Assembly (NCBI RefSeq): GCF_029892965.1
Contig: NZ_JARXWN010000004.1
Coordinates: 62,001-126,000 of the forward strand
Source of the DNA: Dysgonomonas sp. PF1-14
GTDB taxonomy: Bacteria; Bacteroidota; Bacteroidia; Bacteroidales; Dysgonomonadaceae
Direction of reading: 5' to 3'
Length of the DNA stretch: 64,000 bases
A program made the position numbers and the translations under genes. Positions within the stretch are counted from its first letter, which is position 1. Each line of letters opens with the position of its first letter. The notes beneath the pieces are model-generated. The model was given only the letters and a program-made list of their open reading frames with translations. It searched no databases and had not been told where the DNA came from. Positions 39,776-42,820 of the stretch are shown here, piece after piece.

Positions 39776-40510
39776 CTATTTCTTTTTTGTGTTTTTACTT
39801 TTCTTTTCTTTTTTAAGGGCAGATTCTTTGTCAAAATCCACAGGATTTACTTTCCCCATCAAATCCAGTATTTTAGCCTGTCTTTTCAATATGTATCCCG
39901 ATGGTTTTGCTGAGTTGAAACGTATCGGGTTGGGTAGCGTAGCTGCAATGAGTGCGCTCTCTGCTGCTGTCAGTTTTTTCGCCGGTTTATGGAAATGGGC
40001 TTGTGCTACAGCTTCTGCCCCGTATATATTTTCTCCCATTTCTATCGAATTGAGGTACACTTCCATGATGCGTTCCTTTCCCCATATCAGTTCTATAAGG
40101 AATGTGTAGTAAGCTTCGAGTCCTTTGCGGATGTATGACCTGCCCGACCATAGGAAAATGTTTTTAGCCGTTTGTTGGCTGATAGTGCTGGCTCCCCGCT
40201 GACGTTTTCCTTTTTCAGCCTCTTCCATTGCTTTTTCTATCTGATTGAAGTCGAATCCCGAATGGTCGAGAAATAGATTATCTTCGGAGGCAACCACAGC
40301 TAAAGGTAAATTCTTGGAAATATCTTCTATCGGTACCCATTTGTGCTTACACACTACTGTTTTACCTGAGAATAGTTGACCGGTATTGTTCCATACCATC
40401 AATGGAGTATAATATACAGGAATAAACTTGGTGAGGACTACCTGCAGGATGCTGAATAGGAAGAAAAATATAACAAACCGCCTGAACCATTTAAAGATAG
40501 CCTTAGCCAT
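39776..40510 (-). CDS. mtgA: monofunctional peptidoglycan glycosyltransferase
   Basis: 244 residues from ATG at 40510; a longer frame would need a GTG at 40540. One N-terminal helix (about 9-28) anchors a GT51 domain in the periplasm. GT51 motifs: [13 protein letters not shown] (catalytic Glu), [46 protein letters not shown] and [20 protein letters not shown]. It polymerises lipid II into glycan strands. The C-terminus is basic and lacks a transpeptidase domain. Confidence 0.93.
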
Positions 40511-40688
40511 ATCGTTGCTGAAAATCAATTTTACATCCACTTTGTTTTACAAAGTAAAAGTAATTATAAATATTGGATTTTCACTATTTATAGCTGATTA
40601 TTATTTATGGTAATATGTTTAATAAAATAGTTCATTTATTACCTACATAACTCTTATCCAAGTTTAATTTTTTGAGTCTGCCTTAGAA

Positions 40689-41158
40689 CTAACGCGCACT
40701 CCCGTGCTTGTTTTTCATTTTGGCATTGCCCAAAACGAAACAAAAGGCTAGTGCTCCGCTCCTCAGCGACCTGTCAACGGCTTGCCGGCTGAAGGGGACA
40801 AACGGGCTATCGCCCCATCCCCTTCTACGCCGCCTGCACCGGACAGGTGCCCGCTTGCGGAGCTAATGCACAGAGTCGCAATGCGCTGACAGGGTAGGGT
40901 GATCGTCTCCAAATCATGCGTCAGCCCGCGCCGTTAGCTTTATGGACGGGGTACCCGTAGGGGGAGAAAGGCGTGAAACGAAAACGTGTTTGAGCTTATT
41001 AACAGATTCGTATTGCACAAAGCTATGAGCGAGTTTTTTCGTTTAGCCTTTGAGCCCTTTTACGGGTCGTCCTATGAAGCGGGGCGCAAAAGACTTTTTG
41101 ATTCCTTTTGGGGCTTAGGCCAAAAGGAATGCAAGCAATTTTTAATTGCGCGCAGTAG
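40689..41158. repeat. 470-bp G+C-rich MITE-like intergenic element
   Basis: In the 890-bp gap between mtgA and the lyase gene. Outer ends are imperfect inverted repeats (CTAACGCGC at 40689 versus CTACTGCGCGC read inward from 41158), followed on both sides by TGCTTG and then by a palindrome flanked by CATT/ATTC: TTTTGGCATTGCCCAAAA (40718-40734 region) and CCTTTTGGGGCTTAGGCCAAAAGG (41104-41127). The middle is clearly richer in G+C than the flanks and has no plausible ORF. Flanking parts of the gap (40541-40688, 41159-41431) are A+T-rich without visible genes. Confidence 0.6.
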
Positions 41159-41419
41159 TAAATAAACCAACATATAAATTAATCTGACTATTGATTCCCA
41201 TTCTTTACCAGATCATCTTTATAAATAAAAATGACATAAGGAAAGTAAAAAACACTATAAAGCTTGTGTGTTTCGTTTAATTAATCTTATATTTGTGAAA
41301 AGTGGTTGGGGTGACAATCATTTTGTCATAAAAATAGTCCGTTGAGATAACGAGTCACCTATTGATATGATTTTATTTTCCGGAAAAACAGATTACGATA
41401 TAATATTATCTAAGTTTAA

Positions 41420-42820
<1,401 letters not shown>

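Follow-up and report, generated by a model that had tools for sequence, protein, structure and literature searches.

The window, the whole stretch of DNA that was analysed (64,000 nucleotides of Dysgonomonas sp. PF1-14), contains a gene-free element in the 891 bp that separate two divergent genes. The minus-strand neighbour (39776–40540) presumably encodes an mtgA-type transglycosylase, and the plus-strand neighbour (41432–42820) a protein that we take to be tryptophanase (tnaA).

The locus and its G+C-rich core

The stretch 40689–41158 stands out by its base composition, with 52.8% G+C as compared to 38.9% for the whole window, 20.9% immediately to its left and 26.7% immediately to its right, and none of 6,353 segments of 470 bp, taken in 10-base steps, reaches its value. 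The sharp rise in G+C described in an initial annotation of this DNA is borne out, and the matching inverted ends described there correspond to two halves that are inverted copies of each other: the left half aligns locally to the reverse complement of the right half with a score of 32, whereas 300 shuffles averaged 12.3 and never exceeded 20. The palindromes noted beside both ends are also present, at about the positions of the A/T-stem hairpins in Table 1, and the longest stop-free run in the element is 62 codons, in agreement with the earlier view that it holds no trustworthy ORF. Both strands fold well (z-scores of -5.5 and -5.7, with none of 100 shuffles as good). A repeat search of the region reported neither an inverted pair nor a direct repeat; it missed the inverted pair because the ends of the element are imperfect and gapped.

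When copies of the element are aligned in one orientation, homology runs beyond 40689–41158, out to terminal inverted repeats (TIRs). The 470-bp borders first proposed hold for the G+C-rich core, but the mobile unit really spans 40590–41201 (Table 1). The upstream neighbour gene was found in 11 of 25 genomes, the own genome included. One of these (G011) has kept both neighbours, with about 265 bp between them versus 891 bp here, and no element was seen in it; the other nine are uninformative on the empty site, because no tnaA was found in the stretch examined.

Table 1. Features of the element, in positions of the window
Feature	Position	Strand	Basis or remark
Left flank TATTT, probable target-site duplication	40585..40589	.	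4/5 bases match the right flank
Whole element, 612 bp, MITE with IS982-type ends	40590..41201	.	Copy alignment, end consensus, element-free G011 junction
Left terminal inverted repeat, degenerate, ATAGCTGATTATTATTTATGG...	40590..40630	+	Copy alignment
Left structured module, reading from centre outwards, borders approximate	40692..40865	-	Homologous left modules of relatives in alignment A1
Small hairpin GCAC-TCCC-GTGC, outer end of left module	40696..40707	-	
A/T-stem hairpin of left module (left palindrome)	40712..40741	-	Resembles four Microviridae records
Right structured module, reading from centre outwards	40935..41155	+	Alignment A1 row L001:1786-2006, covariation
A/T-stem hairpin of right module (right palindrome)	41101..41130	+	
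Terminal hairpin GCAATTTTTAATTGC of right module	41135..41149	+	
Right terminal inverted repeat, degenerate, reverse complement ATGGGAATCAATAGTCAG...	41161..41201	-	Copy alignment
Right flank TCTTT, probable target-site duplication	41202..41206	.	Similar to the left flank

Copies, terminal repeats and an insertion sequence with the same ends

In the own genome, 49 matching pieces could be merged by hand into 40 places with whole or partial copies, which is a lower bound (40 of 60 candidates were scored). Matches to the element were found in 20 of 61 genomes, i.e. 17 of the 25 of the genus, two of the family and, weakly, one of the order. The TIR core has 61 matches at up to 2 mismatches in the own genome, versus 2 for a reversed control pattern; it is present in four of the five relatives first tested (none in G005), and then in 14 of 21 further genomes. 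The gene-free stretches bounded by pairs of TIRs measure between 43 and about 900 bp; for many TIR cores there is no second end. Exact 5-bp duplications flank 23 of 58 non-redundant TIR pairs from the own genome and relatives (at most 4 mismatches over both ends, less than 1,000 bp), as compared to 2.5 on average and at most 8 in 2,000 permutations, which treat the copies as unrelated; chance may account for a few of the short pairs that have 3 mismatches. The remaining 35 pairs have no exact 5-bp duplication, and lengths of 1–4 and 6–10 bp show no excess among the 58 pairs. The genome-wide search for copies and target duplications that the initial annotation proposed thus yields about 40 places, and duplications that are frequent in the family. 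The window copy itself has eroded ends, with by eye about 6 mismatches in 15 positions on the left and 5 in 18 on the right, and its own duplication is imperfect (TATTT versus TCTTT).

Among 31 own copies that were checked, none lies inside an ORF of at least 90 codons and two (L010 and L068) overlap an ORF end; the flanking genes are in tandem for 16 copies, divergent for 11 and convergent for 4. Numerous copies share the right half alone, from about position 40902, and in most of 17 that were aligned its left side is joined to another palindrome, so there are two architectures under one kind of end. The second combines the right module with a left palindromic stretch, TTACTAGTTACTTCGCCCTTTGGGCAGTTACAAGTTACAAGT, in place of the left module (loci L020, L022–L024, L026, L028–L030, L061, L062, L066 and L068). 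Nested, adjoining and very short (43–65 bp) TIR–TIR elements with the same ends were also seen (L077 1–170, L095 2453–2924, L078 445–487, L080 493–549 and L103 3799–3863), suggesting that the ends alone may suffice for movement.

A candidate for the source of the transposase was found among the lone TIR ends of relatives. This insertion sequence (L174, in genome G036) is 1,065 bp long, has the same TIRs (0 and 1 mismatches) and is flanked by the duplication TAATT. Its open frame of 314 codons (303 residues from the first ATG) encodes a transposase that matches the NCBIfam IS982 model NF033520 with an E-value of 2e-31 and 109 bits, below the curated cut-off of 130, and the Pfam domain DDE_Tnp_1_3 (PF13612) with 28 bits at a cut-off of 27. 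Relatives of this transposase occur in 8 of the 61 genomes, while the own genome has no match at E 1e-20; relatives on plasmids are at best less than 60% identical, and plasmid records gave no match to the element itself. Seven copies of the insertion sequence have both ends, including the internally deleted L187; four are flanked by exact 5-bp duplications (L174 and L182, TAATT; L183, ATATA; L186, TAATC) and three are not. Autonomous copies with these ends are L174, L182, L183 and L184, all in related genomes.

Other candidate partners were tried and rejected. None of the 30 PF01609 transposase matches that were scanned, out of 73 in the genus, lies inside a TIR pair (at most 2 mismatches), no TIR pair surrounds any of the eight PF01609 loci of the own genome, and the nearest own-genome PF01609 protein is 27% identical to that of L174. 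The lone TIR ends of the own genome were considered as hidden autonomous copies, and the 20 regions inspected contain no transposase between two TIRs. An IS200/IS605-like reading, to which the subterminal palindromes might point, was set aside because of the 5-bp duplications, and the DDE transposase of the partner also argues against it.

Taken together, the ends, the 5-bp duplications and the same-ended insertion sequence in relatives point to a MITE mobilized in trans by a transposase of the IS982 type. The element is 612 bp long, non-coding, dispersed over about 40 places and bounded by TIRs, its family shows an excess of 5-bp duplications, an autonomous insertion sequence shares its ends and one relative lacks it; the earlier suggestion of a non-autonomous mobile element is upheld by these data. 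We consider it very probable that it is a MITE-like non-autonomous transposon, with an inverted cargo of folded modules, on which an IS982-type transposase acts. Its mobility is well supported by these sequence comparisons. The DDE transposase encoded in related genomes by an L174-type insertion sequence would act on the TIRs in trans, and the element would insert into A/T-rich intergenic DNA with duplication of 5 bp (NAWTN by eye). In the own genome, movement has presumably ended. By eye, the interior of the element has no similarity to that of the insertion sequence, implying that it did not plainly arise from it by deletion.

The folded modules and their distribution

The cargo consists of two homologous modules of about 220 nucleotides that face outwards, each predicted to form a long irregular hairpin, then the A/T-stem hairpin and then a small terminal hairpin. 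Left modules read on the minus strand and right modules read on the plus strand align together, from which it follows that the interior is an inverted dimer with both units reading from the centre outwards. This alignment, called A1, holds 26 modules, chosen from 59 distinct ones found with a hand-made expression, and has a mean column identity of 68%. Consensus structures of 24 element cores (27 minus L004, L032 and L052, with badly trimmed starts) have z-scores of -9.6 to -18.1 relative to column shuffles on both strands (30 shuffles each).

In alignment A1, 26 of the 40 pairs have changed on both sides with pairing kept. Paired cells amount to 94.6%, versus 78.1% in shuffled alignments, and 184 cells with a double change are still paired, versus 57; none of 500 shuffles was as high in either measure, although the pairs were taken from this alignment itself, which favours the paired-cell measure, and its sequences are related. 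A weaker measure, the number of further pair types, gave 58 versus 53.1 and was reached by 16 of 500 shuffles. With partners slid out of register as a control, pairing falls to 38–52%. Stems are replaced wholesale between species, while GGGnACC and GGTCG are invariant, and pairing is maintained across species, whether by selection or by conversion between copies. The locus is thus neither single-copy nor without conserved pairing. In four further loci (L206, L211, L214 and L221) a possible pseudoknot was noticed by eye, in which the loop of the A/T-stem hairpin contains ATCAAG or GTCAAG, matching CTTGAT or CTTGAC(C) ahead of that hairpin; the two putative partners change together.

The covariance search suggested in the initial annotation also gave matches outside the genus. 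With a covariance model built from the module, and at E 0.001 (with stricter filters and five candidates scored per genome), matches were obtained in 22 of the 395 genomes of the class, 20 of them outside the genus; 11 of these 20 score above 40 bits, with a best E-value of 4e-19, and the weaker nine may include chance matches. The apex CTGTYTGA...GAGTT was recognized by eye in 14 of 17 readable stretches from this search, which leave out L231 at a contig edge, and is absent in L207, L228 and L214. The right module of the window has a longer apical loop, GTGTTTGAGC...GAGCGAGTT, and its left module has no apical motif. Inverted halves were seen by eye upstream of the modules in L207 and L208. 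In L209 and L215, two species of one genus carry the module at apparently the same place, before the same gene start; here the inner stem has been exchanged yet is still paired, suggesting selection or conversion between copies.

The exact apical motif CTGTTTGAGCGNAGCGAGTTY was found in at least 117 stretches of genome contigs, where about one is expected at random. The titles of these records include Flavobacterium, Bacteroides and Flammeovirga, and also Haemophilus, Variovorax, Lachnospiraceae, Desulfobulbaceae and Patescibacteria. Among the matches listed, 81 of 109 distinct sites lie in a stem context (8 or more of the 10 flanking bases complementary), as compared to a permutation mean of 3.5 and a maximum of 10, and 18 of 112 sites have an opposite-strand partner within 700 bp on the outward side, versus none on the inward side. 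Two inverted exact motifs are present in five listed loci, all facing outwards, and in L238 one strand carries two of them. Hairpins bearing the motif form outward inverted pairs in Haemophilus (L257, L266 and L300), Variovorax (L241) and Bacteroides (L298), each with a second, A/T-stem hairpin after the motif hairpin, as in the family of the window. The module model, run on 80 of the listed motif loci, gave 30 matches at E 0.1 or lower. All matches below 1e-5 have titles of Bacteroidota, and none of the Haemophilus and Variovorax loci among these 80 was matched. The cross-phylum likeness therefore extends to the motif and the outward pairs, short of homology of the whole fold. The local element of Haemophilus was found at 3–4 sizeable places in each of three genomes, and most of these places match both strands, implying that it is self-complementary.

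Nature of the cargo and comparison with known systems

The covariation seen in the module is that expected of a structured RNA, and would equally fit single-stranded DNA. The structured RNA locus proposed initially therefore stands as far as pairing kept through many compensatory changes is concerned, but RNA is not separated from single-stranded DNA, and we regard the two as about equally likely candidates for the folded strand. Tentatively, and with somewhat less than even confidence, we suggest that the cargo could be a folded RNA or single-stranded DNA, specific to one strand, to which a factor would bind near the apex; it may be older than the IS982-type ends and travel independently of them.

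The modules could be a transcribed structured RNA, cis-acting or small, for which the TIRs are merely the vehicle. This possibility, which we find somewhat doubtful, is consistent with the compensatory changes in the stems, with an apical sequence that is kept while the flanking stems change, and with an excess of GU over AC that is larger on the outward strand in both halves (105:5 versus 18:12 on the other strand in the left half, and 133:3 versus 53:14 in the right half). However, GU is allowed in the structure prediction and the excess rests on few columns; it vanishes when helices are built from Watson-Crick pairs only: over the entire element, read on its plus strand, GU and AC are then nearly equal in number (10:11, 19:11 and 17:12). 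Across phyla the strand bias (GT:AC of 5:1, p 0.22) is not significant, the copies occur in all orientations relative to their flanking genes, and Rfam 15 has no match to the element or the module, also when a loose threshold was tried with the element. A literature search, with most subscription papers outside its coverage, gave nothing that points to the module, and the apical-motif strings were found in none of the papers searched.

Equally doubtful is the view that the fold acts in single-stranded DNA during replication, transfer or transposition, like the recognition site of a nicking or priming enzyme. Both strands fold well, and the commonest apical core, GC-GNA-GC, is of a kind that we take to be an unusually stable DNA mini-hairpin. 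In addition, the left 106 bases of the element match 4 of 50,697 phage records at E 0.1 or lower, all of them Microviridae, which are single-stranded DNA phages, and each by one hairpin. In these records (MT135430.1, MG945831.1, MT135370.1 and MH572371.1) the hairpin, resembling that of the left module, lies outside annotated genes, and GGCTAGTG stands beside it in the three that were inspected whole. The whole element has one match in the phage records, at E 1e-5. On the other hand, its right end has none there, and of the four Microviridae stretches only that in L398 fits the module model well (E 4e-8; L396, 8e-4). A microvirus-type hairpin pattern had no matches in IMG/VR, and the module also matches contigs of tailed, double-stranded DNA phages, such as L410, where it follows the major head gene at E 4e-5 on a piece with tailed-phage head genes. 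This piece is one of four contigs (L407–L410) obtained with a looser hairpin pattern, three of which, of 4–5.5 kb, had been considered as Microviridae; by protein families L409 and L410 are pieces of tailed phages, while L408 gave no protein family match. The apical motif itself is present in eight viral contigs, in phage or host DNA.

The modules might also be REP- or REPIN-like repeats that were moved by a RAYT (Y1) transposase and later captured by IS982-type MITEs. They resemble REPINs by the inverted pairing of folded units, and divergent Y1 proteins, read as RAYT-like, are present in many of the module-bearing genomes searched. We nevertheless hold this origin to be improbable, as the model found no module at 38 Y1 loci (one hit, E 0.63) and no RAYT-like hit was obtained in 117 listed motif loci. 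The module is also several times longer than a REP (20–40 bp according to PMC3733652), and the Haemophilus influenzae REPs shown in PMC2817692 differ from it. Bidirectional transcription terminators are similarly improbable: hairpins do lie near both ends of the element and the module follows a head gene in L410, but convergent genes flank only 4 of 31 copies, the genes on either side of the window copy are divergent, the terminal hairpin has no U-run after it, and the module is larger and more conserved than a terminator needs to be.

A broader and more novel reading, which falls just short of being probable, is that the modules belong to a so far undescribed family of folded elements found throughout bacteria, and that these work in a strand-specific way as RNA or single-stranded DNA structures. 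They would often be arranged as outward dimers, as in the class of the window, Haemophilus, Variovorax and others, commonly with CTGTTTGAGCGNAGCGAGTTY, and may be carried by phages; MITEs with IS982-type ends would have taken them up and multiplied them in this genus and family. Should the motif shared across phyla point to true homologues, this would be a very widespread folded element without a family entry in Rfam 15, and the partner protein of the module would become a concrete question.

MITEs are usually viewed as deleted transposons with meaningless middles. The vehicle described here is ordinary, a MITE with IS982-type ends, whereas its cargo is unusual, conserved and folded: the conserved part is the middle, in which the sequence turns over while pairing and the mirror-image dimer are retained from species to species, and other orders of the class have the module too. 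With respect to the IS982 family, the partner insertion sequence shares the ends of the element and its DDE transposase matches the IS982 model, but the element itself is gene-free and L174 remains under the NCBIfam cut-off. The minisatellite-bearing MITE of Porphyromonas gingivalis (PMC4596501) is reportedly a small gene-free transposon as well. REP, BIME and REPIN sequences associated with RAYT are also folded, partly alternating in orientation, intergenic and dispersed (PMC2817692); the element differs from them by its TIRs, its 5-bp duplications and its units of about 220 nucleotides, and no RAYT was found nearby. MITECca01, an IS982-derived MITE of Cardinium, is also non-autonomous, with IS982-type ends and many, mostly intergenic copies (PMC9769881). 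It is about 240 bp long, keeps some sequence of the parental insertion sequence and is described from one strain, whereas the present element has an inverted dimer of folded units as its interior and extends through a genus and further.
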